NCBI GenBank assembly: GCA_019055375.1
Contig: JAHQIW010000960.1
Span: 1 to 64,000, forward strand
Direction of reading: 5' to 3'
Source: Parelaphostrongylus tenuis
Lineage: Eukaryota; Nematoda; Chromadorea; Rhabditida; Metastrongylidae
Length of the DNA stretch: 64,000 nucleotides
Under the pieces are notes generated by a model. The model had not been told where the DNA came from and searched no databases. It was given only the letters and a program-made list of their open reading frames with translations. A program made the translations under genes and the position numbers. Within the stretch, counting starts at the first letter, position 1, and each line of letters starts with the position of its first letter. Of this stretch, positions 8,206 through 47,306 are shown one piece after another.

Positions 8206-8344
8206 GGCGTCAATGTGATTTAGTGGCATTGTGCTGACTATTAGACACTCATGTGATTTGCCATTTTATTGCCACTAAAATGCAGCAATAAACCTTCGAT
8301 AGAAATATATGTCCGGAATACATCACAGTTCAAAATTTTCAACT

Positions 8345-15709: not shown

Positions 15710-15770
15710 AATAATTCCTGATTTCGCTTTTTTTAGGCAAAACACGAGGTGTTACACTATTTTATTTCAC

Positions 15771-15803
15771 AGCTGACGTTTCGGCAGTTGTCTTTTCAGA
15801 GCC
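15771..15803 (-). ncRNA. Minimal hammerhead ribozyme motif (Penelope type)
   Basis: On the minus strand: GGCT (stem I), CTGAAAA core (consensus CTGAAGA), stem II region GACAACTGCC, GAAAC, GTC cleavage triplet, AGCT. Stem I is GGCT/AGCT (three of four pairs). Stem III is a single C-G pair. One core base differs from consensus, so activity is doubtful. Confidence 0.55.
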
Positions 15804-16385
15804 TGGAAAGATCAAATTGTCCCAATCCAATCAGTCAAAAACCTCCATTACTTCTTTTGAAAAAATCACCAAGGCCCCAGATTTTGATCGCATCAAGCAC
15901 AAAATCAACTCTCAACATACTCACCGCTTTCCATATGTGTTCCACCGAATGATTAAAGTAGAGACCACCGGAAGGAAATCACATAGGCTCGTAATGCACC
16001 CTAACATCAAACAACAGTCTTATATACTGATTCAAATCACGTGTGATAACGAAGCATTCCTCTCTGGCGGTTTATAGTTCGATTGGTGGTATTAATCCAA
16101 AGTGCTTCAAAGATTTTTCGTGCTGATGTTTTTTGTTTCTGCGCAAGGATGGTGACTTCGATCTCGAAATCAACTCCGTCGTGGGTGTCATTACGAGCCT
16201 GTGTGATCCGCTTCCGGTGGTGTCCACGTGAATCATTCGGTGGAACACATATAAAAAGCGATGAGTATGTTGAGAGTGTGATTTTTTACTTGACGCGATT
16301 GAAATGTGGGTCTGGTGAATTTTTCTAAAGGAGCAATGAAGGTGTTTGTGAATGATTGTGATTGCGGTACAATTTGACCTTTCCA

Positions 16386-16421
16386 GGCTCTGAAGAAGGC
16401 AAATTGCTGAAAACGGTCAGA
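16386..16421 (+). ncRNA. Minimal hammerhead ribozyme motif (Penelope type), degraded
   Basis: GGCT, intact CTGAAGA core, AGGCAAATTGCT as stem II region, then GAAAACGGTC instead of GAAACGTC, and AGAT. Two extra bases interrupt the GAAAC-GTC part. It is the mirror-oriented partner of the motif at 15,771-15,803. Confidence 0.5.
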
Positions 16422-16475
16422 TGGCAAATAAAGCTAACTGTAATACCTCGTGTTAGGCTCAAAGAAAAATCAGGA

Positions 16476-23690: not shown

Positions 23691-24137
23691 TCACCAGGTC
23701 GGTGGTCTTTCTGTAGAGTGCTTGATGTCCTGTGGATTCCGTTCGGTAACGACTCTAGTCCATCGGCTGTCGTTGAAGCGCATCAGGTGTCCGGCCCACC
23801 TCAATTTCGATATCCTGGCGTCCAGAACGGCGTCTCTGATTTTCAATCGTTGGACGTAGGTCGAACTTCGGATCCTTTCTCTCATTTGCAAGATACGGGA
23901 TACTCCTAGCATCGACCTTTCGACTGCGCGTTCGACAGCGCCAAGTGATCTTTCATTCTGCTTGCGCAGCGACCAAGTTTCTGCTGCATACGTTAGAGCA
24001 AGGATAATCGCCGGGTCGAAAAGGTGGGCACGGAGTGGGATGTTCTTCGTCCTCTTCACTACATCTTCGATGCACTTAAACGTTCCCCAAGCCGCTCGTT
24101 TCCTCGTGCTCAACTCTGGAGTTAGGTCGTTTATCAT
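23691..24137 (-). pseudogene. RTE polyprotein C-terminal domain fragment
   Basis: At 148 codons this is the longest open frame of the element. It carries MINDLTPELSTRKRAAWGTF, LTYAAETWSLRKQNE, ERAVERSMLGVSRI, SKLRWAGHLMRFND and RPPTWWSDFF. These are the conserved blocks downstream of the reverse transcriptase in RTE elements of strongylid nematodes. Related DNA is seen at 17,098-17,245, 29,040-29,400 and 45,560-45,890. Confidence 0.9.
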
Positions 24138-24257
24138 ACTGATTTCACGACCTAGACAGGCGCAAATGGAGCATTCGGAGATGTTCGTTCAAGTGAGCGT
24201 GAATGGGCATTGAAAACCCATTCGTTTTTCCATGTACAACGTTTTCGTTAGATTTAG

Positions 24258-26349: not shown

Positions 26350-27118
26350 TTAGTCCGTCTCGATTTTCGCAGCCTAGTTTGACCCTAAGCTTCAGCAACC
26401 TCTCCGTACTCGTCCTACCCAGCGGTGCCGTAGTGGAGGCTCTTTTGGGGTCAGGGGAATGAGGCCCATATTTTTTGGTATTTTCAGCATTTTGATACAC
26501 AACGTAGGCTTGCTAGGTTTTAAATGACGGCTGGGTACTCTCGAGTAGCTTGCCAGTCTCTGCTGAAGGAATATGAAACGCTTATTTGTTGGAGGCGACT
26601 CCAAACTGCCTCCCGTGTACTTCCCAGCCGCTTGATTATAGGCTTTTGTCGATATGACTCGTAAGAAATAGAGTTTCGTTAAGTCGCCGCTGCAGTAGCA
26701 TTAAGCTTATTCCCTGAATTCACCTGCGTCCCTGGAAGCACGCGCGCTTTTGGTTCGCGTTTGTTTCCCTATCCACCACCTAGGACGACCTAGGGACGCT
26801 TCTTGTGGCCTCGATACCAACCCCGGCGGGAAGCCCTCAAAGAGGGAGATTCTCGTCATGATATGGAATTAATAACGGAAAAGTTCTACATTATTCTTTC
26901 TTTTTCCGTCCCCGTCTCAGACTCCGCAATTCCACTAAAGAAAAACCCACCAAGATTCTGTCAAGAATTCTAAAGTTTGAGTTGCGATAGAAAGCATGGA
27001 AGAATTCCGCTCTCCGCAATGAGTCTGACATCTCATCTTGGAAAGGAAAAAATTCCAGTCCAGTGGAGGACATTTCGCACAGTCATCCTCCACAAAAGAG
27101 GTGGCCGAAGGATCTTCT

Positions 27119-27245
27119 TAATCCATTGAATCGATTGTTTCTAAAACCTCGTAGTAAACATTCAAAATCAAGTCCAAAAAAAACTTTTGGACTTGATTTT
27201 GAATGTTTACTACGAGGTTTTAGAAACAGTCGATTTAATGGATTA
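27119..27245. repeat. Near-perfect palindrome, 61-nt arms
   Basis: The arms 27,119-27,179 and 27,185-27,245 are reverse complements at 59 of 61 positions, with a 5-nt loop (AAAAC). As a result, open frames on opposite strands here encode the same peptide. Confidence 0.95.
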
Positions 27246-27370
27246 GTTTTTGGTCTACCAGCCGAAACCATCGATTGATGGTGATGGACCAGTGTATTGT
27301 ACACTATGCCATCACCACATACCACATACGCCTCCCTCCTTGCTACAATGCAGGGCTTAATGTAGGGCGG

Positions 27371-27419
27371 GGGTCACTGACGAGGAGGACGAACCTCCGA
27401 AACACCGGTGTATGGAACT
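27371..27419 (+). ncRNA. Hammerhead ribozyme motif, family A
   Basis: Order: GGGTCA (5' strand of stem I), intact CTGACGA core, perfect stem II GGAGG/CCTCC closed by ACGAA, intact GAAA, palindromic CACCGGTG as stem III, TA (cleavage expected after A), then TGGAACT. All conserved catalytic positions are present. Stem I is short (A-U, C-G, U-G). The very short, self-complementary stem III suggests activity as a dimer, as known for small mobile-element hammerheads. Confidence 0.75.
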
Positions 27420-27462
27420 GGCGTACCAACCTCGTTTTAGGCTAAAAACATGCTTTTTTGGA

Positions 27463-27682
27463 CTTGATCTTCTTAATCATTGTCCGATTTGCTTTTTGAG
27501 TGTACTCTAGAATCCATTCATAATATTGCGCGATGATCATCCTTTTGCGCATAACGATGGTTTTTCATGAGGTAAAGCCAGTTGAACAAGCACGATTCCG
27601 TATGGAATTCTGTTCTTATGAATTCTGGATATTTTACACATTCATTTTATGTTTTGTGATTTATTGAGAGGGATTAAAAGAT
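27463..27682. other. Spacer between transposons
   Basis: AT-rich with no feature recognised. Confidence 0.5.
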
Positions 27683-27967
27683 AGAGCTCTCAGCGTTGAT
27701 CAATCAGGAGGGATGCGTCGTGCATTAGGATTCAATTTTTGATTTCGTTTTGCGGTGATCGAATGCATATTTGGCCTCTGCAATGACTGGCTGGCTCCCA
27801 GCTGTATCAGTCAGTGCGCTTATTCTTCCAGACAAGTCGGGGCCTGTCTGGTACCAATTTACCGACCCGGGAGGTATGGATGGCTTGGTGAGCTCATGAG
27901 CGCGAGATCGAGCTAATGACCTTGTGTGCAACTCAGAACACCTCTAACCACTGCTCCTATTTGAACC
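27683..27967 (-). mobile_element. tRNA-derived SINE, copy 2
   Basis: Same orientation and same body as copy 1 at 23,005-23,312. Shared blocks include the reverse complements of GTTTnnGGTGATnGAATGCA, CCTGTCnGGTACCA and GGATGGCTTGGTGAG. The tRNA-like head is damaged (CACTGCTCC in place of CACTGCGCCAC on the plus strand), so the A box is weakened. Confidence 0.8.
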
Positions 27968-28003
27968 AGCATGTCATGTGCTCTGATAATGGGCTCTTGT
28001 ACA

Positions 28004-28046
28004 GCCCGATACACGTGTTTCGTCCATGCAGTCTCGTCAGTCGGGC
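28004..28046 (-). ncRNA. Hammerhead ribozyme motif, family B (left arm)
   Basis: On the minus strand: GCCCGA (stem I), CTGACGA, GACT-GCAT-GGAC (stem II, one mismatch), GAAA, CACGTG (stem III palindrome), TA, TCGGGC. Stem I is six perfect pairs. All core residues are intact; stem II is weakened. Confidence 0.75.
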
Positions 28047-28313
28047 AGAACTCATCGTCTTTTAGTCTATTTAGCCAATACTCTCTGGGTGCTCGAGCCC
28101 ACACTAAGTTAGCGAAGAACGATTTACACCGAAAATCAAGAAAAAAAATCACCGAATTTACAGTATTGTACACTCGACTGCGCCTTGGCTGGTGTTTTCA
28201 TAATATTATACCTTTATTTCAAGTGTTTTCTAAGACCACGCTCAAATTTCATATTTCTCACAAGTATTATTTGAGCCATCATGTCATGTGGTCATGTAAT
28301 GGGCTTATGTATA

Positions 28314-28356
28314 ACGCGATACACGTGTTTTGACCTTACAGTCTCGTCAGTCAAGG
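28314..28356 (-). ncRNA. Hammerhead motif, family B, decayed
   Basis: CTGACGA and the stem II sequence GACT-GTAA-GGTC are intact, but GAAA has become AAAA and stem I (CTTGA/TCGCG) is largely unpaired. Expected to be inactive. Confidence 0.6.
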
Positions 28357-28525
28357 TATGATAATGTGAATATACCTGCCAAAAACAATTGAGTGTACAC
28401 CTCTGCAAATTCAGTTGATATTTTCACTTGATTTCCGATGTAAATCGTTCGCCTCCGCTACCTCTTAGTGTGGGGCTGAAGTACTACAGAGGATTGGCTA
28501 AAAAAAACTGAAAAACGACGGGTTC

Positions 28526-28568
28526 GCCCGACTGAAGAGACTGTAAGGTCGAAACACGCGTATCGGGC
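28526..28568 (+). ncRNA. Hammerhead ribozyme motif, family B (best copy)
   Basis: Order: GCCCGA, CTGAAGA, GACT-GTAA-GGTC, GAAA, CACGCG, TA, TCGGGC. Stem I is six perfect Watson-Crick pairs. Stem II is four pairs (one G-U) closed by the GTAA tetraloop. Both core strands (CUGANGA and GAAA) match the hammerhead consensus, and self-cleavage would fall after GCGUA. It lies at the inner side of the right arm of the element. Confidence 0.85.
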
Positions 28569-28743
28569 TGTACAAGAGCCCATTACCAGACCACATGACA
28601 TGCTGGCTCAAATAATAATTATGAGAAACATCAAAATTTGAGCGTGGGTCTCAAAAAACACTCGAAATAAAGGAAATTTATTTATTCGTGCAGTATTTTG
28701 TACTGTGAATTACCTGAAAACTTGACGAAACTTTTTGCGCCCT

Positions 28744-28818
28744 ATATATATGTGTGCATATATATATATATATATATATTGGATTAGGTTGATATATATA
28801 TATATATATATATACATA
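28744..28818. repeat. AT dinucleotide microsatellite
   Basis: Two blocks of (TA)n separated by TTGGATTAGGTTGA, between the family B element and an RTE copy. Confidence 0.95.
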
Positions 28819-28829
28819 TATATTCATCA

Positions 28830-30400
28830 CCTGTCACCTGTCGTCCCATTGATCCTTGGCGCGCATGAGTAGTCCAGTGGGCCCTCTTCGCTTTAAGGAT
28901 CGTTGGACATCATACCTTTCTTCTAAACTTTTCGTGAAGAAAGCGGCAGCTCTGGGGTCGGTAGTCTCTCCATAGAGCGTTTGATATTCCGATGAATCCA
29001 TCGTTTTTTAAAGCGTTATTACGTGTCCGCCTCACCTTATTTTTGATAATCCGGCGTATGCAACGGCATTTTTGGCCTTCAGTCGATGACGTTTGCTAAA
29101 ATCTTGGATCCTTTGTCATTTGTAAAATACGGGATACTCCCGCATCGACTATTCGACTGCGCGTTCAATAACGCCAAGTGATCTTTCATCTTGCCTGCGT
29201 AGCAACCAGGTTTCTGCTGCGTACGTTATGACAGGGATAACTAAATAGTCCAAAGGTGGGCGCGGAGTCGGATGTTTTTCGTTTTCTTCACTACGCCCTC
29301 GATGCTCCTAAACGCTATTTCTTCGCCGCACAAGCTGTTCGTTTCCTCCTGCTCAATTCTAAAACTAAGTCGTTCATCATATTTACTTCACGACATAGAC
29401 AGATGTAGGTAATGCACTCGGAGATGGTCGCTTCATTGGGAGTGAATGAGGTGTTCAAAACCCATCCGTTCTTCATGAACATGTTTTCATTAAACATAGT
29501 CGAAGATCAATCTTCCGCAGGCGCTGTCGAATTCGGTCACCCTAATTTCGCCTGGCTGATGCTTGATGTTATGAGGACGATGTGATCAGTGAAGCGAAGA
29601 GGTTGGTAATTATGTGTATATCCATTTCATCGACTATTCTCAATACCTCTCTATGAAACATTTAATTTCCTGCAAAACTGCTTCGAGCCTTACCGAGGTC
29701 GTTATCTGGAGTCAAAGTCAATGAGATGGATTCAAACATATTCACTACCAGCTGCAATCCATTGACTGAAAGAAACAGGATAACAGAATATCATGTGTTA
29801 TCACCATAACGCATCCCTACTACTACTAGAGAGTAGGTGAGAGGCAGGGCCAGTGATGAAGAGCGCGAGACCTCCACAACTTAAATATGTCTTTGGGGCA
29901 TATCCTTGAAGAACGGCCATGCTTTTTTGTTAAACCTTTGTATACCTCACGAAGGATCGATATGCCGAGTAGGGACGCCCTGGCGCCCAAGGTCTCTATG
30001 AGCGCTTCTTTTTCCAATGTATCAAAGTTTTGTTCAAATTGATGAAAGTGAAGGCAGCTCGGTTCTTTTATAATCTTATGAAACTTCAATGAGTCTTCTG
30101 AACGTGTGGATGTGGTCTACAGTGCTAAATCTTTTCCGGAACCTTGCCTGTTCGCATGGCTGTCATTCGTCAAGTGTTTTTGTCAATCCTTTGTAGGTTG
30201 ACTCGGGGTGAAGAGTTCACAGACGGCGGACAACAAGCAGATTGGGCAATAATGCCCATGTCTTGAAGGTCTCCCTTTTGAACAAAGACACGGTCTTTCT
30301 GGTTTTCGATCGCCTGGGAACCGTCATTTTAAAAAGGTATGAGTGAGGAGCCGAGCCAGGGTGCTGAAGAGAACTGTGTTGATTACTAAGGTGTTATTTT
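28830..30400 (-). mobile_element. RTE-type retrotransposon, 5'-truncated copy
   Basis: Minus-strand peptides in RTE order: a reverse transcriptase piece at about 30,089-29,826 (KEALIETLGA, SILREVYKGLTKK; compare EALI...GVPTQYIKVLRELY in RTE elements), then MKNGWVLNTSFTPNEATISE, CREVNMMNDLVLELSRRKRT (29,497-29,315), then DNA matching the C-terminal block of the 23.5-26.9 kb copy down to about 28,840. The copy lacks the endonuclease and is full of frameshifts. Its 5' end stops about where a Penelope-like fragment begins. Confidence 0.8.
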
Positions 30401-30486
30401 CACTACAGTTACTCATTTCAAACCAAAAAAACTTCTCTCGATTGGCTGAAACGAGGTTATTAGACTGCGGTAACAGTGATAACTTC

Positions 30487-30521
30487 ATCCAACGTTCCGG
30501 CTAGTCACCTTCTTCAGAGCC
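30487..30521 (-). ncRNA. Minimal hammerhead ribozyme motif (Penelope type)
   Basis: On the minus strand: GGCT, intact CTGAAGA, stem II GGT-GACTA-GCC, GGAAC (GAAAC expected), GTT as cleavage triplet, GGAT. One core substitution (GAAA to GGAA) probably lowers or abolishes activity. It lies just downstream of the endonuclease reading frame. Confidence 0.55.
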
Positions 30522-31407
30522 TAGATTTATATAGTATGTTACTATTTAAACAATTCTGATGAATTTATGTTTAAATCCTAGGTCAAGACAAAAGCTTAAG
30601 CTAAAAAAAGGCGTGAGCTCTCTTATGATAGTGACGCATTCGCCCTTTCGGTTCATTTTGGAGTTTTCGCGTTTATCCAAATGCTCCAAGATTTTCAGCA
30701 TTGATGCCTTTGGTTTCTGCGCTAAAATCGTGACAGCCACATCGAAATCGTTATTGCTGCGCTTTTGTGCCCCATGTAAACTTCGAAGTTTGTTTTTATC
30801 GATTTTAGATCAACTATTTACATATTATTATATGCTGATAATAGTGGTCTACCTTGTTTTGCCTATAAATTGCTCCACATATGTTCTTACAAGGTATCAA
30901 ACAAATTGTGCCCAATCTCATACAATCCTTCTAATTTCCGGCAGACTACACAGTTTTTGGTATGCACAATCAATAGTAAAGCTTGTTACAGATCTGCTAC
31001 TGGCGCATTGTGGGAGGGGGGAAGTTCAATAATTACCACAGAATTTCCAAGACTGCATCTTTTTTAGACACCTTCTATCGGCGCCACTAATTTCGCTTAA
31101 TAATAAATGGCAGTTTGAAAGGGATCTCATTTAGCTGTGAAGTATTGCTATTTGCGGACTTAGTTCTTTTTGAAATTTTCACAGTGGCTAATGTTTTGCA
31201 GGCATTGGAATGGCTATTTTTCGTGCCAAGTTTGATTAAATCATTGATTGGCTCTTTCCTCTTCTCTTGTGCATACATTTCTATCCATTCGGGTACATGT
31301 TTTTGATAGGCGCTTTTTCTCATGTGTGAAGGATGAAAAGAAAGGAAATGGAGTGAAATGTTTTTGCTACTTGGTGGTTCGGTACATGAATTTTGCATTA
31401 TAGCCAC
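30487..31407 (-). mobile_element. Penelope-like element, 3' part (linker, GIY-YIG endonuclease, hammerhead)
   Basis: The linker at 31,407-31,090 reads HVPEWIEMYAQEKRKEPIND to IPFKLPFIIKRN. The next segment continues AIRRCLKKM. The region to 30,860 carries degraded sequence corresponding to the LVRNRLYDR and C-x-x-C part of the 46-kb copy. Then EEF-like VEQFIGKT (YIGET motif, degraded). The open frame 30,740-30,546 reads AVTILAQKPKASMLKILEHL, GECVTIIRELTPF. A hammerhead motif follows immediately. The reverse transcriptase core is not present. Stops and frame changes show that it is dead. Confidence 0.8.
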
Positions 31408-31739
31408 AATCTAGAAGCTTCAGTTGGATGTTTGAACAATGGAAGCCAACCCCCTGCTTGGATTGCCTCGTGTAAATCAATATATACTCTGACTGTCAAT
31501 TCAGATTTCGACATTTGCCCATTTCACTTTGTGTGGAACAGACAATGAAATAGTTGTCTATATGTCGACAGTAGAGCAATGCGAAGTGAACAAGAATAGG
31601 AGCTTCAACCTTATACATAAAGCCGGTGGCAAGGGTAAGCGCAACGGATGACCTTTTCTAACCCCTGAGTTGGTGAACTAATTCCCGACCACCAAAATAC
31701 TGAGGCAAATAAGACATTAGATCTGTTCATTAATATTTG
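31408..31739. other. Spacer; no gene recognised
   Basis: No similarity to the other features and no open frame of note. Confidence 0.4.
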
Positions 31740-32110
31740 AGTCAACATGCCATGTGGTCTTGGTATTTAGCTCTTATACATCCCGATACACGTGTTTTCG
31801 ACCTTGCAGTCTCGTCAGTCGGGCAAAACTGTCGTCTTTCAGGCTTTTATGAGCTAATATTGTCGGAAGCCTGCTCTCCGCACAAATGAGCATCAAAGAC
31901 GAACAATTTACAATGCATGTCAACAAGTGTATCGAGCTGTGCAAGAGTCCATTACCAGACCACGTGACATGTTGCTACACATAATAACGAAAAGATCTGC
32001 TAAAATTTGAGCGTTGGTCTTGATAAAGCATCGAAATAAAGGGCATAATATAATAAAAATACCAGCCATAGAGCAATCGAGTATAAAACACTGTAAATTC
32101 GGTGATATTT
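31740..32110. mobile_element. Inverted-repeat element, family B, copy 2
   Basis: The left arm (31,741-31,850) carries CATGTGGTCTTGGTATTTAG and the hammerhead. The right arm (31,920-32,110) carries GAGTCCATTACCAGACCACG, TGACATG and the ATTTGAGCGTTGGTCTTGAT end. The right-arm hammerhead core has been lost; only CAAGTGTATCGAGCTGTGCA remains. Confidence 0.7.
31781..31824 (-). ncRNA. Hammerhead ribozyme motif, family B
   Basis: On the minus strand: GCCCGA, CTGACGA, GACT-GCAA-GGTC, GAAAA (one extra A), CACGTG, TA, TCGGGA. Stem I has five perfect pairs. Stem II has four pairs with a GNRA loop. The added A next to stem III is the only departure from consensus. Confidence 0.75.
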
Positions 32111-33647
32111 TCACTTGACAGTTCTTTTTTCGAATACATACGATTATCGAACATGGGTCGACTGTGTCGAAGTGGTTTTCCGCTTGCCGTCCGGCGCGTT
32201 CCGATTAGATGATTGACGTTATCGGATATGTGTCAACTGTGTCGGATGCCAGCCGGCGCATCGATTGTAGGTTGACTTAGTCGACAAAATGGCTTGCAGT
32301 GCAAAGTTATTTGATGCGCTTGTATTAATTAAGGGAGCAATCCGAAAGCCTTCATTACGTGAAAGTTGGTTTGATGCGCGCGCAACGTGGGTGATCTAGA
32401 AACATATAAGTACTGGCAGTTAGGTTGTTATAAATTTGAGCATCCTGAATGAAGATTTATCATGAGAAGTCATCGGACCGGACAAATTGGATTATAGTTT
32501 TTTGAGTCAAGAGATAACTAAAATTTCCAAACCCACTGCCTTTGCCGTGCTCACCCACTCTTTGTAAATTTCGGTATTGTTGTTTATATTCCTTCTCTCA
32601 GGTTGGCCGATAGAGGGAAACATCCTAAGATGTTTCTCAGCTATTTCGACATCCAACTGATTAGGAATTACTACAAATTCTCACCTTTATCACAAGCGGA
32701 TAGGCGGATAGACTTTGATCTTATGAGCTCCCTGATGATGTGTGAACGCTGTTTTTGTGTGTGTGTTAGGTTGGAGCTGATCTTCTGTATCGAATGTGAT
32801 TATTTGTAGAACTGCACTAGAAAATATGCGAAAAACGGGTCGATTTTGCTATTTAACCAAAGGTTTTCCTACTCTGAAAAAAGGTTGCAGGAAGGGATTG
32901 AAGTAGTGCCCTTTTGCTCTTCGCTACCTAGCTCTCTGATGTAGCCTTGTGGCGCAGTTGATTTCGAAGTTCTAGTAGAAGGCATACTATTTTGGGACTC
33001 GGATCCAATTCTAATAAGATCCAGCATTATCTGGAAGCGTTACGCCACCCAACACAGTGATCTTTGATAACCTCTAGCGCGCCGTAATTTTCAGATTCAT
33101 ACATGTTATCGCAAAATCGGCTATACTACGTTTTGATCTTATTTGTAGGCTTCTGAGATCGCCAAACTTCTTTTTCGAATTATTTTGATATTGCGCCGAT
33201 ATCGTTGCAAATAGCTAGTGATTCGTTTACTATTCTCCTCCAAAGGCGTTTCTTCAGATACCAGCACAATGATGTTCGCTGGCACACATTTCTTTATGTG
33301 AAAGAACATTTTGCTCTGTACTCATCGCAGAGAGACGCGAAGTAGTGTGTTCAGATGCTCAGTATTTTTGGACAGTACTTTGCTAAGCCGCATACGTGTA
33401 GTTCCTTAAAATTCATAGAATTAAGGGAAGAAGTTTATATTTTAAGCAGCGTGGAAAAAGTAGATTTTTTGTCGCATTGAGATAATTTCTGCTTAGTGAT
33501 AATACACCCTTAACAAGTCAAGAAAATCCTGCTGGTACAAACTGCATAATTCAAAAGTCCAACTTCCGTAAACTCGGCAATAACAACTGATAAGTGGAAA
33601 TCGAAAGAATTCATCTGATGTGGTAGAGTTGCTGCAGTAATAAATTT
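32111..33647. other. No gene recognised
   Basis: A 68-codon plus-strand open frame (32,603-32,809) has no recognised domain. No repeat of the classes described elsewhere was found. Confidence 0.4.
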
Positions 33648-33975
33648 GGCCGTCAGTCAATCAAATACCTTCTTCAGAGCTTGAACATATGTTACATTAT
33701 CCTATTTTAATGATTCGCAGGATTTTTTATATACCGCTCAGGTAGGATCAAAGATTGAACGAAGGAACGGCGCTAGGTTTCGTGTGTGATGGTGAACGCC
33801 ATCCGCCCTTGTCTGTTGCTGTGCTTTCAGAGTTTTGGTGGCGTTCATCCATAATGGCCTCAAGGAGTTTTTGAAACGTTGATGTTTTGTGTTAGTGCCA
33901 ACTAGGGATCGTGACAATCACGTCGAAATTTGCTATTGCTGTGTGTTTTTTGTGCCCTTATGTAAGACCTAGAGA
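33648..33975 (-). mobile_element. Penelope-like element 3' fragment, strongly decayed
   Basis: The minus strand at about 33,940-33,800 reads FDVIVTIPSW, then KTSTFQKLLEAIMDE, corresponding to FDVAVTILAQ...KASMLKILEHL of the 30.5-kb copy. The end of the fragment (33,648-33,682) has GCT, CTGAAGA and a scrambled remainder of the hammerhead (CTGACGGCC in place of GAAACGTCAGCC). Confidence 0.6.
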
Positions 33976-35599
33976 TTTTCTTCTGAGCGGTTTAAGGATC
34001 CTAATTCATTTGTTCTCATAGAATTGTTTTTTATATTGCGGATGAAGAGTGGTATCCTAGTTTTGGCGTACTATGATTTTTTCCCGCAGAATCTTACATT
34101 TTATCATAAGTCTATGCGCGTGCGCTGCTGCGGAACGGAAAAGGCCTACACATGGTGAACCGTCCATGTGAAATTTTTTAGATATGGTGCTATAGGGGGT
34201 ATGCTTAATTGGTGTACTATACGGGCAAACTATCGTAGCCAAAAAAATTTTGGGGATGGGGGGGGGGTCGATTACCTTTATAACTCATGATCTTCCCCAC
34301 GTAAATAAACGCTCATAGAAAGCAAGTATCGGAACGGCTGAGAATGTGTGTACGGAGGAGAAGAGGGAAGGAACGTAATAGCGAAACGTGGAGCGAGAAC
34401 TAGTCATCAGTCCTTAAAACACTCAACCACCTCGTAAAAATTCAAAAGGAGAACTAGGTTTCCAAAACAGCGAAATACTCCGCATCTGAATACCATCCCC
34501 TTCAAGCGCTGCCGTTTTACATTACGCGAAGTTAGTGAGCGCGGTAAAAGATGGTATTGGTTTGATGTAGAGATGCTCGGATTCTGGTGCTGCTGCTTGC
34601 GTTCATTGCTGATGTGTGGCATAGGTGCCTGCCACGCAGATTATTTATATTTTATCGCAAGAGAAAAATGACAAACAATAATTACTTAATAATACACCAT
34701 TGACATATACAAATAACGGTTCACAGTATATTACGCAACGAACCCGATCGATGAACTGTCGTAGTCCGTTCAAACATAACTGAACTTTACATGAGTGATG
34801 TGTCCCTCGTAGAAACGCATGAGCCATGTGGAACGACAATCAGCAGACGTTCACGAGAAGTTTTAACCCTAATTAGAGTTGTTTGAAAACAGAAAGCAGA
34901 AGACGGGGCTTGGGGAGTTACCATGGTCGCCTAGGAAAGACGAACCCTCGAATGGTATGCAAGGTTCATGACTTGTTTTACATATACAAGTCGTATTGTG
35001 TGTCAGCATAGTATGTGGTTAAGACCAATTTTTCGCGAGCCTGATACCTGTCCTTCGGGGGTGGGTCGCCCATGACCCTCACTACACTGTTCTCGAGATG
35101 GTATGAGTTGCAATTTACAATTGTCAGTGATACATCAACAATTGATAGTTCATGAGTCAAAGGTGGTAAACAACCACACGTCATATATAGTGGCTTAGCG
35201 GTAGTCACAAACCAATGTTATGTCCGACGGGCTGCACATGGCGATGAACAACTTGGTATTGATAACGAAAAAAAATACGGTGAAGGAACGACGAAGGCAT
35301 GTGAGAGACAAGCAATGACGCAATGACGCAATGGACTGGTCCAAAGACCTCCTGTCTTCCGCTATGCTGCTTATCACTGCCAGTTCCTGCGCATCTAACT
35401 GACCATCACTCTACGTGCAAGACCCCAACGTCGCATTCGCTTTTCCGCCCTTCAAAGTTGCCCAAACAATCTGTTGTCTTATGTTGTTACTCATTTAAGT
35501 AGTAAGGTAAATAAAGAAAGTGTAACGAAAGCGCTGAAGTTGCTAAGAAAGGTGCCTAATAAGATGCGATCTTGAAAATTAATCTGCCCTAATGGAAAG
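33976..35599. other. No gene recognised
   Basis: Contains an isolated G run (34,257-34,267) and short open frames on the minus strand (34,057-35,377) without recognisable similarity. Confidence 0.4.
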
Positions 35600-36050
35600 A
35601 AGAGTGACTATGAAATCGGGGTCAATTTTTGGATAACGTGTAAGACATTCTGGAAAGAATATATAGGCGAAACAGGTGTACCGCTTCTCATCCTCATAAA
35701 AGAACATCTAGATGATAGATCTAGAATCGATAAAAGCAAACTGCTAGGTATACAAAGGGCACAGAAACACTCAGAAACAATTCTGATGTGACTGTCGCGC
35801 ATACATGCGCAGGAACCAAAAACATCAACGCGTACAACTTCTAAGATTCTTGATAAACGTCAAGAACTAGAATGAACCGGAAGGACGAATATGTCACCAT
35901 CACGCGAGAACCTCGCGTCCTTTTTTCGTTCAAACTTTTGGTCTAACCTTGGTCGGTACATATGAACTTCTCCGAAATGATCTAAATAGTATAATACTAA
36001 ACATACGTCCAGGCTCTAAAGAAGGCGAGTTGCTGAAACGTCAGCCGATC
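35600..36050 (+). mobile_element. Penelope-like element 3' part, plus strand
   Basis: The plus strand from about 35,637 reads CKTFWKEYIGETGVPLL, IKEHLDDRSRIDKSKLLG, QKHSETILM; after a stop come AQEPKTSTRTTSKILDKRQE and a shortened end. YIGET with the following R/K-x-K-E-H is the GIY-YIG nuclease signature. The hammerhead motif lies about 110 nt after the last coding piece. This is the only Penelope-like coding fragment in plus orientation. Confidence 0.8.
36012..36046 (+). ncRNA. Minimal hammerhead ribozyme motif (Penelope type)
   Basis: GGCT, CTAAAGA (one G-to-A change in the CTGAAGA core), AGGC...TGCT stem II region, intact GAAAC, GTC, AGCC. Stem I GGCT/AGCC is fully paired and stem III is one C-G pair. 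The core change probably inactivates it. Confidence 0.6.
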
Positions 36051-36989
36051 TATCACTGCCACATCTCCATCACCTCGTGTCAGCTAATCAAGATAAGTTT
36101 TTTTCGATCTCCAGTATCAGTTAATAATGTTGAGGTTTATAATTTCAAGCACCAATCGTTATTTTAATTTCGTAATATTCGCAACTATTGGCCTGTGGCT
36201 AGTAGTGAGGCAACTATTCTTATGGACAACATGAAATTCCTCTGCAACTTTTTGAATCACTTCTGTTATGTGCGCATCTATCAACTCATTGGAAAAGCGC
36301 ATTTTTTTTGCCTTTTAGGACCTCGATAATCATTCAAAAGAGTACGATTCGAATTTTAATGGTCTTGTTGATTTTTTGGCAGATACTATTTCAGAGCGCT
36401 CTGTCAAAAAAAGTAAGATCGTGTTTTACATCCGGGCTCTTAACCTTTTCTCTGAATTTTAGCAGTCACTGAATAGCTTAAATTTTAAAAACGTAATTGG
36501 AGCACATGGCTTTGAATAGAAAAACTTCCCAATAAACTGTGGCAGTGAAGAAGTGAGTTCGCACATGGTGTGTTTTTCTTGTCAACTAAGTTGCGTAGAT
36601 AACTGTGTAACGAGCGCACCGTTGATTCCCAGCTCATCGTGATTCACATGTGCGCGCAATTTTTGTTAATGATAATTTCAAGTGTACCACTGCAATGCAT
36701 TGACAGTTTTTTTTATTATGCACATGGTTGGGATTTTGAGGTTCAAGCTATGGAATTGTAGCCGAAATCCTTGAAAAACAGAAACGCTTTTTTTCGAATG
36801 TTCAAGAGAGCGCGAAGAGCGGAAGAGTACCGATTTTTTGCAAATTTCTCGCTTGTTCAATGAAAGCTCTAATCGAAATTGATAGCATTTGTACATAATC
36901 AACATGTAACTCGAGTTTATTCATGCTGTAATACCGCAATAAATTTTGGTTGAACATAGATGTTTATTTCAGCTGCATCACATTTCACT
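36051..36989. repeat. Pieces of the 10-12 kb tandem-repeat family, 3' of copy B
   Basis: At 36,290-36,560 the motifs TTTTTTGCCTTTTAGGACCT, ATAATCATTCAAAAG and CACTGAATAGCTTAAATTTT resemble the unit seen repeatedly at 10.1-12.4 kb near copy A. The rest shows no gene. Confidence 0.45.
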
Positions 36990-39900
36990 TCAGTTCCCAC
37001 TAACAGTGGCAAATGCGGAGAAGAAATGCGATCCAAACGGGCCCGATGCCAACATTCGAATTGCTCTGTTAACCACATTTTGCCACATCATTCTCGACCA
37101 TTTCGCCATGATAATGTTTGTGGTCTGCACAATATTTCTTGTCAAAGTAGTTTGCATAAGAAAAATCAGTTCTAACCGAAAGAGTTCCCATAATTGTCAA
37201 TTGTGTGACATTGATAGTTGTTATTGTCGCCATGGGAGAGCTTCCATCACATTTCGCCATATCTCTATGTGTACTGATGCAAATTCCCGTCACTGCATTG
37301 GAGACAATGATGCACTTCTGTTCCATTTTCTCGACTGCAAAGATTTATGAGACTTAGAAAAACATTTATTTACTACATGAAGGAACTCAAAAGTGCTAAA
37401 ATACTTTTTCAAAGTTTTTTTTATTCTTCAGAACCTTTTGAACCATCATGTGACACAGTGAGCACTATGTCCTTTCTACAAAAAACAAGAGATGAAAGCT
37501 GCTCTAAATGCTTTGATAGTCTGAGGTATCACTCTGATAGTTTTCCTCTCGAATCTTTTTATGTGAATTTTCTAGATGCTGTCCATTTTTTCATCAGCAT
37601 CAAATAATCTGTAATTTTTCAATTATCTACGCTTCAGATTGAAATCATTCGAATGGTTTTTGGTATTATAGACCCACCCATATCCGCTGCTAGATTAAGT
37701 ACAACTTCCTGGCATAACAATGGCTCGTAACTGATCTTAACAGTAAGTTGACTCAAAATGGTCGAGATTACGGCATCAGAGAGGAGTGCGCTACGACCTT
37801 GGCTTTCAAGGACGTCCAAGACCTGAATAATCAATCTAGTCATTAGCTTAAAAGTTTATCTGTAAGTGATCTCAACCAAATTGTAAAGTTATGAAGTCGC
37901 ATTGACACCAGGAGACTGATAAAATGTTTCAAAATTTGGACACACTTTCTGCGTTTTCCAAATTGTTCCAAATGGAAAAATATGTGCAATTTCAAAACCG
38001 CAAACTCACTGTTTGCATTACAAGACGTTCTACAAATGCCTGAGCTCCTTCTCTACTAGTTGCAATGCCGGACACCTTAACAGAAACTTCAGGTTTTCCA
38101 GCGTAAACCATAGCAACAGGCAAAGTTGTGAAGCCTGTGACGGTGAAGTTCCTAGTGCTCACTGCAAGGAGATCTAGTAGACTTTTAGCAGACAGTTGAA
38201 CACTAAATCACTATCCAAGAGTGCAGTGCTGTACCCAAGGAATAGGCTCGTATCTTGAGCATAACGTTCCCACCCATAGCATGGGGCGCGTGCTACCATA
38301 TACAAACGAGGTCACCGATTTGCTCTCACTTTTCAATATCCCATGTTAGCGTCAGGAACAAAATTTTGACGAATTTAAGGTGAAAAATATCGCCCTCAGA
38401 CCCCACTTAAGCCTACAGTCATCTAAGACGAATAATTCTTTGAGTTCTGCCTGCATCCTACGTGATAAACCAACTGGAGCGCTGTGTGCCAAAAAATTTG
38501 CATTGGCAATTCCCTCAAAGTAATAAGTCTCCCACTAAGTTTTCGAACATGATTTAAGAAATAGAATTTTCTCACAAATTTTTCTTTTAACTATTTTGTG
38601 CAGAATTTTCTTGAGCATCGTTTGGTATATTTTCGCACATACTTATCCAACAACAACAGACGAGCAGATCCGAAGATTTTGAAAGATGCAAGCAAGGAAT
38701 GGCGCAAGGACAACTGGATTCCGCACGATTTCACACAAGTTCGAAAGAACAAGGAAAGCAAATTGCGCAAGTTCGTCTACGTCGTCATCGTCCGCTCTTC
38801 GTTTTGAACAGAATTGTCACCATTGAAGAGAAGTGGGCCTTTTTCATGAGCCAGCGTCGTCCAAATCACTAGATGGTCACCAGGTCAGCAAGGAAACACC
38901 AACACCGAGACTAAATCGATTTACGCCAAAAGCAATGTTGATCATTTTCTGACACCCAAGTGGGCCATCGATTGAGACTTGTTGCTGATCGATAAGACCA
39001 TCCGTTGAGAGATATTGTTAGCAACTGAACCGTTGCAATCAAGCAATTTCACGTCACTGCCGTCGCCAAGTCTTTTTGCTTCAAGACAATGCAAAGCCAC
39101 ACGTTGTCACGAAACAAAGGAGAACTTGATCGATTTAGGCTGAAAGCACTTAGATCATCCGCCGTATCCGCCAGATATGTCTCCATCCAATTTTTCTCTT
39201 CAGATTATTGGAGCACTGGTTGGACATGAACAAGATTCGAAAATCAACCATTTGCGCCGAGAATTGAATGGCTGGTTTTCATTGGAGAATAATGAGTTTT
39301 ATGAGCGCGGAATTGATTTGTGTCCCGGAGCTTTGGCAGAACTGCACCCAGGCAGACGGAGAACACTTCAGTTAATGTTTACTTGATACTTTCGATTACT
39401 TGGATAATAAAGTTTCTGGACCAAATTCGGAACTCATTTGGAGACCTAATATAAAATTTCGTGTTCAACGAGACATTAGTGTGATTGATGATGATACCTT
39501 ACTGAAAAGACTCTCTAAAGGGTTTTCAGTAGAACGTCGATGTTTGGAAAATATCCTTATGATACAAAGAGAAAACCATATCGTTTTGTGAAGTACTTAT
39601 TTTAATCTACTACGTATTCTTTTTTGATTTATTTATGTCCATATAGATTCAACAAGTTGAGATATGGTGATTTGGAGCTATGCTTCGCTTGTAAAAAGAC
39701 TTCCATAACAAGTTCTACTAACGGAGAAGGTAAGTTGTTATCACAGTACTTAGCAGGTTATTTCAACATTACAGTGGATTCTTGGTACAAAATTGATCCA
39801 TGGCATCGACTGTTTTCCAAATCTCCCAATAAACATTTAAAATTATTTCAAAAAGAATGTTCAAAGCCTAATCGAGGTTGATACGCCAGGCTTATATACG

Positions 39901-42900
39901 CGTGTTTCGGAGGTCTCGCCCTCCTCGTCAGTGACCTACGCCCCATATTGAGGCCATGCATTGTAACAAGGAGGGAGGCCTATGTGTGTGACGGCACAGT
40001 GTACAATGACACCAGTCCATCACCACTTCCCAGTCGATTTTCGAATGTAAACATTCTTAAGATTAGATTGATTATTTATTGCGAGGTTTTAAAGACAGTC
40101 GATGTCATGGATCAACTTTGTTCTAACCAGCCGAGATCCATCGACTGAGAAGTGGTGATGGCACAGTGATATTGCACACTGTGCCGTCACCACATAGGCC
40201 TCCCTCCTTGCTACAATGCATGGCTTAATGTGGGGCGTAAGTCACTCGAGAAGGGCGAGGCCTCCGAATAACACGTGTATGACTCTGGCGTAACAAACTC
40301 GTTTCGGCTTTGGAACATTCTTTTCGAAATTATTTTGGATTTGCTAGCACTTAATTGAAAAGTTTTGACTTCAAACAAATTTATCACTGCCAAAGGTTGT
40401 ACTATTACAGAAGAAACTACCAAAAAGTTTTTTCAGAAATAAAAAGCCCAGTTGTTTCTCGGAAGCTTCAATTTTCGTTACAAATTGAGCAGAATGAAGT
40501 TGCATCCTTTTGAAAATGCTTGTGAGCTCTAGCCTTTTTAGAGTTTTTCGTTGAACTAATAGTAATATATCTTAATATTATTACTTTAGCCAGCATGTCA
40601 TGTGGTCTGTTAATGGATCGATCTTGTATACCCCGATACATGTGTTTCGACCCGACACTCGGGCAGAGCCTGTCGTCTTTCAGCCAACTCTCTGTGGGCA
40701 CTCCAGTCCCCACTCTAAGAGGTAGCGTCGACGAACGATTTACAATGTAAGTCAAGCGAGAAGTATAATATTACACAAATACCAGCCAAAGAGCAAGCGA
40801 GTGTACAACACTGCATGTTAAGTGATATTCTCACCTAACTTACAGTGAAAATCGTTCGCCGACGCTACCTCTTAGTGTGGGGACTGGAACACCCACAGAG
40901 GACTGGCTAAAAGACGACGAGTTCTGCCTGACTGACGAGACTGTGGGGTCAAGACACGTGTATCAGGGTGTACAAAATCAGGCCCACTAACAGACCACAT
41001 GACATTCTGGCTCAAATAATAATTATGAGATTATTGAAATTTGAGCGTGGTCTCAAGAAAACACTCGAAGTAAAGGTCTTACAGTGATATTTCGATAACG
41101 AGAAGAGCGAAATTCAGGACTCGGTTTGATTACTGGAAAAACTTTCTTAGTGCGCAGTACCAACGAGCAGAAACGCCTCACCTTCGGGGCAGTAAGCGCG
41201 CTGTTCAAACTTCATAGCTAATTTCGTACTTGTATAGCATAGTTTGCATGATGGGAGCACTCCATCGGTACATGAAGATGGTGTGATACTAAATAGATTT
41301 CTATATAAAATCTTTGCAAGAGTAACGCTTGCACTTCAGTAAAATCCGTATCTATCAGTAGGAAAACAAGCTCTTTCGAAGATAAAAATATTATATTCTA
41401 TTATCGGTTGCTTTTTATACACCCGCTCAAAATGATATGATTTGATAAGGATATCATTTGCTTTGAGCTGATAGGTCTAGTGGCATACAGGTTTCGCATC
41501 TGTTTCGCCTATTGGGATTCATCAGTACCACCATCCTTCTGTTCAGCCAATCCCCTGGGTCAAATAATCCTCTAAAGAAATTGATGCCGATTGAAAAATT
41601 ACCACAAGTCAGGCGATGTACTTACCTGACATTGTGGGGACCGGTAGTCGAGTACATAGCTGTTAGAATGAATCAAACCTCTTTTATTGACCGCTTTTTA
41701 TAAACCCGTTTTATATTTTCGACTCTGCGTATTCTTGTTGCCTATTTTGTCAAAATGAGATCATTTTTTAGATTCATCATACTTCTTATCACCAAAGACA
41801 TTTGTATGTCCTAAGCAACTCTCAAACAAAGTGTATATAGAATTTGTGGAGGTAGATGAACTTTTGCACTTAAACATAAGCCTTCTTAAACGCATGCCGT
41901 CGTTTATCACCATAGAGTACCTTTTCATTTTGTCCAATTATCAACTTTACAGTAGTGTGCAAATATTTGATAACTTATGTATCAAGGGTGCAGGAAATCG
42001 TCTTGAAAGTCCTCAATTCAAGGAAGTGCGTAATTCACGTATATTTACTGTCTTGACCAGTGACAAAGGTTGCAGCGATGGATACGTTTGTAGTAGAGTA
42101 CATGGAGAATAATGATGAATGCCTAGAATACGGTTAAACAATGTTTGCTCTACAATACTATGAGGATTTCAACTCCTAAGTTTTACAAATGATTAAAAAT
42201 TGATGAGAGTCATCGATGATTGGCATCGCATGCAGTGCACAGCATCATTTTTGCCAAGGTACTCATTGCCTTGAATTCTCAGTCACTATAACGACTTTTT
42301 AGTACTGTATGAAATGAGAAGATAGCAGAGCAGTGACGTTTACATTGTAGTACTTGACTTCATCAGTAGAAAATAATAATAATTAAATCTATTACATCTG
42401 CGACCACGTACAAAGATCAATTGTTGTGGACAGACGTTAAAAATAAAACTGGTTGGATGTAAATAATCATATGAAAAATAGCATCGAAATTTTCAATAAC
42501 ATTCGTTTAATGACCTTTGCTTGAGCATTTCCTTTTGCCCTCGAGAAATGCAGGAAAACATTCCCATTGTCATTGCGACAGATGTCTTACAAAAGTTTAT
42601 ATCATGCCCTACCATTTACTGACGACAAAAAATTCAATTACGATAAAAATCCAAATTTGATCAGAGAACCACCACATGGTTATCATAGCGTGCTTCACAC
42701 ATCCTCAGCCGCTTCGCGTATCACTCAAAGTTTTAACGGGATAGTTAAAGGGATAATTTACTGAATTCATTATTTTCACTCTTTTTCCTGAAAGAAGGAA
42801 AGAGATAGAAGAAAGAACGGTTGCGAAACAATGGCCTTGCTCGTGTCATGGTAGCACGTGTCGCTGGGGTGATAGGCGGATTTAACTTCCGTCTAAGGCC

Positions 42901-46237: not shown

Positions 46238-46567
46238 CTAGAAAATCAACCTGAGATAAGGTGCCATGTAGTTGGTGATGTTAAGGCACTCTTCCATTTT
46301 CTTCATTTGCGGGTTTCTGGAATTTATCCTGAAAGCTTCCAGATTTTTGGGCCGATGTTCAGATTTGTGCCCTAGTATTTCAACTACTACCTCGAAGTCG
46401 TTTGTGCCTTCGTATTCTGTGGTGCCTAGAGGTTTATTTGAATCTTTCTTTGTTTTCCAGTCTAGGTGTTCTTCTATGCGGATGTGAAGTGGTCTGCCTG
46501 TTTCGTTAACGTATTCATCACCATATGTCTTACAGAGATAAGGTATATTGTACCTACGCTCATTCAA
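46238..46567 (-). pseudogene. GIY-YIG endonuclease domain of Penelope-like element
   Basis: A 109-codon open frame. Residues about 9-24 (YLCKTYGDEYVNETGRPL) match the GIY...YIGETGR part of GIY-YIG nucleases. RIEEHLDWK supplies the conserved R-x-x-E-H; TNDFEVVVEIL and RPKNLEAFRINS follow, then EECLNITNYMAPYL as the C-terminal tail shared with the copies at 16.0, 30.6 and 35.7 kb. This domain nicks target DNA for retrotransposition in Penelope-like elements. Confidence 0.85.
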
Positions 46568-47306
46568 TCGCCGTCTCTATCGTGGGACAAATAACGCAGT
46601 CCTTTGTTTTACACGGACGGTCGTACAAGCGGTTTCGGACTAATTGACGTCGCAGTGTTTTTAGGGGAATTTCTACAATTCCTACAGAATCTTCTAGACC
46701 ACTCTTTTTTAGACACTTTCTAATAGCGGTACTGAGTTCGTCTTATAAAAGGTAGTATAAGAGGTACCTTATTGTTTAGGTGTGGCAGACTGTTGTTCCC
46801 GTTGCGAGGCTTTTCGCTTCCTTTCGGCTTAACGTTAGCTGATATTTTTTTGTACCCATTGGAAGTGGCTATTTGTAGCGTTGAGTATAGTGATTCCCTC
46901 CTTTCATCGTCTTCCGTGCAAACACTTGAAGCTATTCGATTCATATTTCGAATGCGTGCTTTTTTAGTAGTGAAGGATAAGAGAGTCGGTTTTTCGAGTT
47001 ACTACAAAATAGCTTGAGCAATCGAAAATAAGCATTACGTTAAATGCGAGTAATCACTGAAAGACAACACATCACATCGTTTTTATAAGGTTTCATAATC
47101 CATCATCGAAGTTGACCTGATATCAGATGCCTATACGGTCTACAAATAGAATAGCATTGTTTCTTGCCTGATACTACCCAGTAATCAAGATAAATGTTAC
47201 TGAGTTCCCTATGTAACGCGTCTCTTAACGAAGTAAGCGTAGCGGAGTTCTTCGATGTTACTTTTTCTAATACTATCGTGCCGATTGAATCTACATCACA
47301 GGCCAT

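Follow-up and report, generated by a model that had tools for sequence, protein, structure and literature searches.

The DNA examined was a 64,000-nt window of Parelaphostrongylus tenuis contig JAHQIW010000960.1 (assembly GCA_019055375.1, forward strand, positions 1-64,000). The window contains five inserts of two families of non-coding repeats, A (A1 and A2) and B (B1, B2, and B3), which share a hammerhead ribozyme motif (Table 1). The family B unit is 310 nt long with a GC content of 40%. The family A unit is approximately 271 nt, a period based on one exact 13-nt repeat in A1 and a similar distance in A2, and its GC content is 46%. Beyond the hammerhead, the two families have no similarity to each other at E 1e-3.

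Table 1 Inserts, units, and hammerhead motifs of families A and B in the window.
Feature	Positions	Strand	Description
Insert A1	27,124-27,465		short (-) arm 27,124-27,182; (+) unit to 27,455
A1 flanking 13-bp direct repeat	27,111-27,123 (left, +); 27,466-27,478 (right)		candidate target site duplication (TSD)
A1 hammerhead	27,373-27,418	+	core intact, weak stem I; B-derived model 14.9 bits, E 0.052
Insert A2	39,787-40,336		(-) arm extending into next unit, head-to-head with (+) arm
A2 minus-arm hammerhead	39,896-39,932	-	core intact, stem I broken; B-derived model 20.8 bits, E 6.7e-4
A2 plus-arm hammerhead	40,240-40,284	+	decayed; core deletion; stem I of five pairs; missed by B-derived model
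Insert B1	27,958-28,673		tandem pair of (-) units, joined head-to-head to a full (+) unit
Unit B1a	27,958-28,211	-	5' complete, 3' end without tail; equals B3 plus 40,763-41,018
B1a hammerhead	28,004-28,046	-	intact core; stem II with an A.A mismatch; RF00163 23.5 bits
Unit B1b	28,210-28,353	-	5'-truncated beside ribozyme core; tailed; tandem to B1a, period 310
B1b hammerhead	28,314-28,356	-	decayed; G of GAAA (G12) missing, stem I weakened
Unit B1c	28,356-28,673	+	full length, tailed
B1c hammerhead	28,526-28,568	+	intact core; stem III with an A.C mismatch; RF00163 27.7 bits
Insert B2	31,721-32,119		(-) arm 31,721-31,921 without tail; (+) arm 31,923-32,044 tailed
B2 minus-arm hammerhead	31,781-31,824	-	extra A after GAAA; RF00163 17.7 bits
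Insert B3	40,558-41,076		left boundary 40,558 or 40,569, depending on reference sequence; (-) arm 40,558-40,762 without tail; full tailed (+) arm 40,763-41,076
B3 minus-arm hammerhead	40,631-40,664	-	half-deleted (sixth B motif); B-derived model 20.7 bits, E 7e-4
B3 plus-arm hammerhead	40,926-40,968	+	GAAA changed to AAGA (G12 missing); one stem I pair C-G changed to U-A
B unit tail, B3	41,037-41,076	+	start approximate
Other B tails	28,634-28,673; 32,003-32,042		also inside B1 at end of B1b

Architecture of the inserts

All five inserts contain units joined head-to-head. A first-pass annotation of the same DNA had placed the three B elements close to the boundaries in Table 1, and the outward-reading, head-to-head arms that it described are real in all three. 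It had regarded a tandem arrangement as missing; however, tandem units are found in B1, with a period of 310 nt, and in B2, where the sequence beyond the tail (32,045-32,119) is the first 75 nt of a next (+) unit. The tail-to-start junctions of B1 and B2 are nearly identical. Head-to-tail junctions are present in both families: the A2 minus arm continues approximately 67 nt into the next unit, and A1 continues 13 nt, as a copy of the unit start that begins at 27,456 and partly coincides with the flanking repeat. Among the five inserts, arrays never exceed two units.

At its outer ends, each of the three B inserts has a tail solely on the plus side (with the 75 nt of the next unit after it in B2), and in each of them the outer ends of the two arms are unlike. 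The positions of the tail-less ends are spread over about 20 nt, and in B2 the plus arm ends 75 nt past the tail. The arms of B3 have three common indels that are missing from the B1 and B2 units covering those sites; therefore, the two arms belong together. The head-to-head junction of A1 is a near-perfect palindrome, and this insert is flanked by a TSD candidate of 8-13 bp; the other four inserts have no flanking direct repeat longer than 6 bp.

Hammerhead motifs and covariance models

By their core and stems, the A and B motifs are type I hammerheads, for which self-cleavage is predicted. The core positions and numbering used are consistent with the Rfam alignments of the B copies, which cover positions 1-45 in three of them. 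The features of RF00163 (CUGANGA...GAAA...UH core, stems I-III, open at stem I) are complete in B1a and B1c with one mismatch each. The five B hammerheads of the first-pass annotation lie where it had located them, and the half-deleted motif in B3 adds a sixth. Its description of a consensus-perfect copy did not hold, as every B copy is flawed by a mismatch, an extra A, or loss of G12, and core bases are intact and free of insertions in two of seven arms. The palindromic stem III that it noted is present, without a loop, and is likewise loopless and self-complementary in the RF00163 consensus. The variant CACGCG is not a palindrome and gives the A.C mismatch in the 28,526 copy. In B1c, position 37 of the 43-nt motif is the A preceding the predicted cut (28,562/28,563), in agreement with the product start at 28,563 that had been proposed.

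In the Rfam scan of the window, no match reached the gathering threshold; the best RF00163 score was 27.7 bits against a cut-off of 34. The proposed check with the Rfam hammerhead model matched three B copies, all below the cut-off. A permissive RF00163 search of 14.5 kb gave 27.7 bits (E 0.003) for B1c and 23.5 bits (E 0.074) for B1a, and a search of a short stretch gave 17.7 bits for the 31,781 copy. The B1b copy at 28,314 was overlapped solely by a 14.7-bit RF00008 match, and neither the B3 copies nor A1 had an Rfam hammerhead match. We also built a covariance model from five of the seven B arms, omitting B3 minus, which has a deleted core, and B2 plus, which lacks its 5' half. This model recovered the family A hammerheads in A2 (E 7e-4) and A1 (E 0.05), and these and the half-deleted B copy outranked every unrelated match, the first of which had an E value of 0.23.

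The level of chance matches was estimated with our own sequence descriptors, all of which were defined after the copies had been inspected. Among 400 dinucleotide shuffles, the descriptor fitting 28,004 and 28,526 matched at least once in 3 and twice in none; with one stem I pair fewer, these counts rose to 26 and 3 of 400. Another descriptor matched 28,004 alone and had matches in 5 of 300 shuffles. An earlier strict descriptor detected zero family B copies, and a loose pattern, used without a shuffle control, matched at 18,422 and 41,480 as well as at three B copies. Exact-pattern scans of viral contigs with two patterns gave no matches for either. Covariation within family B was no better than in shuffled alignments (one double change, equalled by 266 of 500 shuffles), and the B ribozyme exceeds the rest of the unit in conservation by only a modest margin (77.6% vs 70.5%), the stretch immediately downstream being higher.

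That the hammerheads are chance matches within ordinary repeats might be argued from the Rfam scores below gathering, the weak covariation, and the decay of most copies. We consider this very improbable, as the post hoc two-copy descriptor was matched in so few shuffles and the model built from B finds the hammerheads of A.

Predicted folding and coding content

In the folding models, a stem III that is palindromic and has no loop makes the dimeric hammerhead more favourable than the monomeric one. The dimeric form was lower in predicted energy per ribozyme in all three copies evaluated: B1a (-11.9 vs -4.3 kcal/mol), B1c (-14.0 vs -10.3 kcal/mol), and B3 plus (-14.8 vs -7.2 kcal/mol). The best predicted dimer fold was the double hammerhead in one of the three, B3 plus, whose core is dead; it was a register-shifted version in B1c and a different fold in B1a. 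Self-pairing of the monomer as a circle was not unusual for B (z +1.2) and was unusual for A (z -3.8). In whole-insert folds (five transcripts of the four inserts A2, B1, B2, and B3), the hammerhead never paired internally, and 39/43, 38/43, 31/43, 25/44, and 47/56 of its nucleotides were paired outside the motif, mainly with the opposite arm. These predicted pairings suggest that copies in the head-to-head arrangement probably have no ribozyme activity. The truncated-arm 5' ends miss the predicted cut site, lying upstream of it by approximately 34 nt in B1b, 9 nt in B2 plus, and 135 nt in B3 minus; the breakpoints were therefore not considered ribozyme-made.

An open reading frame spans the ribozyme in some copies, yet the three codon positions vary evenly (26, 22, and 21 variable sites of 49 each) with no codon periodicity, and a coding unit was rejected. 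In the tailed units B1b and B3 plus, a short open frame starts at about an ATG-equivalent lying 3' of the ribozyme and continues to the end of the tail. Three-frame reading of the unit copies revealed no reverse transcriptase (RT) or GIY-YIG endonuclease ORF in the inserts, and no Penelope RT or endonuclease was present among seven proteins screened in the window. The ORF at 46,238-46,573 (-) was considered as a remnant of a Penelope-like element (PLE) endonuclease and set aside: its GIY-YIG likeness was by eye alone, without database support, and it had no match in Pfam, PDB, or a set of 5.8 billion proteins.

Relation to Penelope-like elements and retrozymes

Passages on Penelope structure in PMC3846280 describe a typical arrangement of two direct pseudo-LTRs (pLTRs) with an adjacent inverted one, head-to-head as the commonest orientation, palindromes at the junction, and an optional tail on one inverted repeat. 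These passages do not mention hammerheads; minimal type I hammerheads are known from the pLTRs of PLEs (PMC11167929, PMC7761336). The A and B inserts have the PLE repeat layout (tandem and/or head-to-head copies with a tail at one inverted repeat). As in PLEs, the ribozyme lies in a repeated terminal unit and has a minimal stem III, the junctions are palindromic, the tail is optional, and copies are 5'-truncated. PLE TSDs vary and are sometimes absent, and the inserts may be alike in this, with a candidate TSD at one of the five. Unlike PLEs, in which a single frame encodes the RT and usually a GIY-YIG endonuclease, an RT/endonuclease frame was recognized in none of the five inserts, and the periods are short and precise (310 and approximately 271 nt). 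The inverted layout had been taken in the first-pass annotation as a possible sign of an undescribed class; since the same arrangement is in print for PLEs, in those passages of PMC3846280, this proposal was dropped. Its second suggestion, inverted dimers of retrozyme-like units, comes close to the structure found, that of non-coding, hammerhead-bearing mobile repeats whose arms lie head-to-head. We read families A and B as a variant within the known kinds of hammerhead repeat rather than as an element class of their own.

Metazoan non-LTR retrozymes are described in parts of PMC7229834 and PMC7761336 as tandem non-coding units of 150-450 bp with a GC content below 45% or below 50%. Their features (head-to-tail units of approximately 150-450 nt, with a type I hammerhead in each) are present in both A and B, whose junctions recur and whose units are likewise non-coding and low in GC, and the same parts of these papers suggest PLEs as the mobilizing partner. 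Unlike metazoan retrozymes, the A and B inserts consist of one to two units plus an inverted arm, and the word "inverted" does not occur in the main text of PMC7229834. Stem III is minimal and palindromic in A and B, whereas the retrozyme ribozyme is canonical with loop-loop contacts.

We propose, with a probability of roughly 0.65, that Penelope-type machinery inserted A and B, which we interpret as non-autonomous hammerhead repeats of retrozyme size, now decayed, in a strongylid nematode. Head-to-tail units would be transcribed into a sense RNA, in which adjacent ribozymes would pair in the dimeric fold and cut the RNA into unit lengths; circular RNA may form as well. A Penelope-type RT/endonuclease supplied in trans would nick the target, and copying would begin at either of two sites within the unit, so that ends come out tailed or tail-less. 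Two copies could become joined head-to-head, one of them 5'-truncated, if synthesis proceeded from each side of the break or if the new strand folded back. For the comparison of fold-back with two templates, arm identity is 79.8% for B1a-B1c vs 78.4% for B1a-B3 plus, and 93% between the arms of A1. The head-to-head structure of all five inserts, the one-sided B tail, and the palindrome and 13-bp repeat of A1 match the Penelope anatomy in the structural passages of PMC3846280. In PMC11167929, the PLE tail is traced to the use of two internal sites for starting synthesis, both strands of the target being cut and extended, and the one-sided tail and head-to-head join of A and B match this account. 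Priming from both target strands was observed in vitro in that study, which in 2024 presented its full-length PLE protein as the first to be purified in active form.

The same anatomy could be read as solo or tandem pLTRs left by an autonomous PLE that lost its coding part or inserted without a copy of it, with no separate non-autonomous lineage. Solo pLTRs are mentioned in PMC3846280, whose passages also describe an Adineta pLTR plus tail containing the first 22 codons, comparable with the open frames that reach the tail end in B1b and B3 plus. We regard this as unlikely, because the near-identical tail-to-start junctions of B1 and B2 and the run-on in A2 and, by 13 nt, in A1 fit a short, precise multimer as the source, while a coding piece was recognized at none of the five inserts and codon periodicity is absent. 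Still less probable, and in our judgement very unlikely, are DNA transposons (MITE or foldback) with terminal inverted repeats and a hammerhead-like sequence present by chance or as a passenger. The long inverted arms, the lack of recognized coding capacity, and the one 13-bp candidate TSD would suit such elements, but matching terminal repeats were not found, the outer ends being non-identical in all three B inserts with a one-sided tail. One arm is 5'-truncated, B1 and B2 contain tandem units, and the ribozyme is common to two otherwise unlike families.

For animal retrozymes, PLEs have been proposed as the source of the mobilizing enzyme because both have type I hammerheads, a tandem layout, and co-existence (sections of PMC7761336 and PMC7229834), and a portion of PMC11722881 suggests that retrozymes are reduced PLEs. 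With insertion by Penelope-type machinery as the preferred reading of A and B, ORF-less, retrozyme-sized hammerhead units with a Penelope signature would make the question of the mobilizing enzyme answerable by genome-wide junction analysis, and the one-sided tail and head-to-head join provide a footprint by which priming on both strands of the target can be tested. More tentatively, and at somewhat less than even odds, retrozymes, short circular-RNA parasites with hammerheads, that bear a Penelope insertion signature may represent a physical missing link, formed when target priming from two sides acts on RNAs of one or two units. If true, this would directly demonstrate that PLEs mobilize the retrozymes of animals and that a retrozyme is a PLE terminal repeat in stripped-down form. 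Among the titles and abstract openings searched, which leave subscription literature mostly uncovered, neither hammerhead retrozymes of nematodes nor nematode PLEs with hammerheads were found, and such missing-link elements in nematodes would be unreported within the same literature. Another comparison is offered by the terminons of bdelloid rotifers, which, in the passages of PMC6431247 that describe them, are PLE-related and carry PLE-like hammerheads, as do A and B, but are giant, telomere-attached, and gene-carrying.

Arrangement of the repeat inserts

Self-comparison of the window revealed five inserts: three of family B (B1, B2 and B3) and two (A1 and A2) that form a second family, A. 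The hammerhead-bearing repeats described in the first-pass annotation are present, with a full-length motif in five of the seven B arms. Its element set holds for family B, and a second head-to-head family carrying hammerheads, family A, had been left out. It had also set the head-to-head layout apart from a tandem arrangement; tandem units are nevertheless present in B1, where two minus units (B1a and B1b) follow each other and stand head-to-head with a full plus unit (B1c).

Units and arms of the family A and family B inserts, as located by self-comparison
Feature	Position	Strand
A1 insert, plus unit and short minus arm	27,124-27,465	both
B1 minus units in tandem, period 310	28,353 to 28,210, then 28,211 to 27,958	minus
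B1 full unit, head-to-head with the two minus units	28,356-28,673	plus
B2 minus arm	31,921 to 31,721	minus
B2 plus arm, directly followed by 75 nt from the start of another unit	31,923-32,044	plus
A2 insert, two long arms, head-to-head	39,787-40,336	both
B3 minus arm	40,762 to 40,558	minus
B3 plus arm, full (reference unit of family B)	40,763-41,076	plus

In each B insert, the minus-side outer end lies about 40-60 nt short of the end of the tail, an extra 3' segment of the B unit. On the plus side, B1 and B3 finish at the end of the tail, and B2 continues for another 75 nt. The tail-to-start junction of B1 is nearly that of B2, a likeness that copying of a precise head-to-tail RNA multimer should leave. 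In the alignment, three indels are common to both B3 arms and absent from the B1 and B2 units covering those columns, so the arms of the B3 insert have one origin. Pairwise identity of the B copies is 68-87%; the copies are thus old, and most of their decay is expected to have followed insertion.

Family A has the same plan; its sequence is distinct, and its unit measures about 271 nt. This period is given by a 13-nt repeat of the A1 unit start 271 nt further on. Where the two A1 arms join, they form a nearly perfect palindrome (61-nt arms, 97%, 5-nt gap; 54/58 in another alignment), and the insert is flanked on both sides by a 13-bp direct repeat (27,111 and 27,466), a TSD candidate of which about 5 bp may be unit sequence. 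The A2 minus arm extends beyond its own unit and takes in the start of a second one (about 67 nt), whose distance from the ribozyme is similar to that in A1. Outside the ribozyme, families A and B have no similarity at E 1e-3, so the common ribozyme is the best sign of its importance to both families.

Hammerhead motifs and their predicted folding

The core bases of the B hammerhead are intact in B1a and B1c; the B1c motif (28,526-28,568) has a mismatch in stem III. One A is inserted in B2 minus, G12 is lost from B1b and B3 plus, half of the motif is deleted in B3 minus, and the B2 plus arm starts within it. Within family A, A1 and A2 minus retain an intact core, and that of A2 plus is broken. 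In the Rfam covariance check proposed in the first-pass annotation, no Rfam family reached its gathering threshold in the window (34 bits for RF00163, the type I hammerhead). Permissive searches gave RF00163 scores of 27.7, 23.5 and 17.7 bits for three B copies, and neither B3 nor A1 had a hammerhead match. A covariance model (R1) built from five B copies, whose E-values are rough, detected three motifs outside its training set: A2 minus (20.8 bits, E 6.7e-4), B3 minus (20.7 bits, E 7e-4) and A1 (14.9 bits, E 0.052; next match E 0.23). It missed A2 plus. Exact-pattern scans of viral contigs with two patterns gave no matches.

Two results speak against an importance of the ribozyme to the families: covariation within family B was not above that of shuffles, and the motif is conserved only modestly better than the rest of the unit. 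The most conserved 43-column windows lie directly downstream of the ribozyme (about 40,981-41,035 and equivalents), and this stretch could be a reverse transcriptase binding or priming site.

Stem III is ACACGUGU; it has no loop, and nor does that of the Rfam type I consensus according to its alignment lines. Folds were evaluated for B1a, B1c and B3 plus, but not for the 44-nt B2 minus, and none of the three adopts the hammerhead as its lowest-energy structure when folded singly. In each of them, the predicted energy per ribozyme is lower for the dimeric than for the monomeric hammerhead: -11.9 vs -4.3 kcal/mol (B1a), -14.0 vs -10.3 kcal/mol (B1c) and -14.8 vs -7.2 kcal/mol (B3 plus). As its best dimer fold, B3 plus gives the double hammerhead and B1c a register-shifted form of this structure; B1a folds differently. 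Minimal hammerheads of Penelope-like elements (PLEs) arranged in tandem may cleave through dimers, according to PMC7761336. In the predicted folds of five insert transcripts from four inserts (B1 on both strands, B2, B3 and A2), the motif is tied up in pairs with sequence beyond its own bounds, chiefly in the opposite arm; therefore, cleavage would be predicted on tandem sense RNA and not on the head-to-head inserts.

Probable Penelope-type insertion and possible origin of the units

The first-pass annotation had considered a new element class. We replace this reading, since the head-to-head layout, the tail and the palindromic junctions are described for Penelope inserts. According to PMC3846280, a typical Penelope insert consists of a pair of direct pseudo-LTRs next to a shortened inverted one. 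One of the inverted repeats may carry a tail at its 3' end, the TSD measures 8-10 bp or is lacking, and the junctions, mostly head-to-head, contain palindromes. In vitro, a PLE protein acts on both target strands, cutting each and extending it; copying begins inside the RNA at two adjacent sites, the sequence between them being the tail, and insertion is unaffected by hammerhead mutants (PMC11167929). The arrangement seen here would result if copying were primed from both sides, once at either of these sites, and the two products were joined in the middle. Alternatively, the new strand may fold back, which would best fit A1.

We consider it probable (roughly 0.65) that these nematode inserts are hammerhead repeats of retrozyme size, non-autonomous and bearing a Penelope-type insertion signature. 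This combination fits an existing hypothesis, in which PLEs are proposed to mobilise animal retrozymes (PMC7229834) and retrozymes are suggested to be reduced PLEs (PMC11722881), and would allow a direct genome-wide test of it. A terminal-inverted-repeat transposon was rejected because the outer ends are unlike in all three B inserts, and a coding unit because codon periodicity is lacking. The units might instead be PLE pseudo-LTRs, left as solo or tandem copies by an autonomous element rather than forming a separate non-autonomous lineage, which we regard as unlikely. Downstream of the ribozyme, B1b and B3 plus (unlike B1c and B2 plus) have an open frame of some two dozen codons reaching the end of the tail. 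In a PLE pseudo-LTR the tail holds the ORF start, and the open frame is a weak hint of descent from such a pseudo-LTR. For a PLE protein, the window yielded one candidate ORF, picked by eye and without support.

Other features of the window

This 111-aa ORF (46,238-46,573, minus strand) resembles by eye the C-terminal GIY-YIG part of the Penelope protein and had no library or database matches. A protein search with the ORF at 23,691-24,185 (minus strand) gave 350 proteins at E 1e-3 or better. Among the best 120 of these, the best matches are named endonuclease-reverse transcriptase or reverse transcriptase and come from Parelaphostrongylus, Angiostrongylus, Haemonchus and Necator, the top match (78% identical) being from Parelaphostrongylus tenuis (Metastrongylidae). 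Judged from this single retroelement, the window is animal DNA of a strongylid nematode, probably one related to the lungworm group.

Another dispersed repeat has four copies about 75% alike (36,983-37,188; 60,430-60,623; 8,337-8,546; 53,437-53,625) and overlaps in part with similar-looking ORFs. A further inverted-repeat element spans 15,728-16,467; its arms are nested (89 nt at 88%, 29 nt at 93%, 29 nt at 79%), and the A and B queries did not match it.

A third hammerhead may lie at 41,480-41,531 (minus strand); it would be of canonical type I with loops, although Rfam reported no hammerhead there. The candidate has a six-pair stem I, intact CTGATGA and GAAA, a four-pair stem III and a decayed stem II, and fits a post hoc descriptor that was matched in 1 of 400 shuffles. 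It sits between 29-nt direct repeats (41,397-41,425 and 41,680-41,708; 283 nt apart, 79%), which a gapped search did not extend; in a retrozyme unit, the hammerhead likewise lies between direct repeats.
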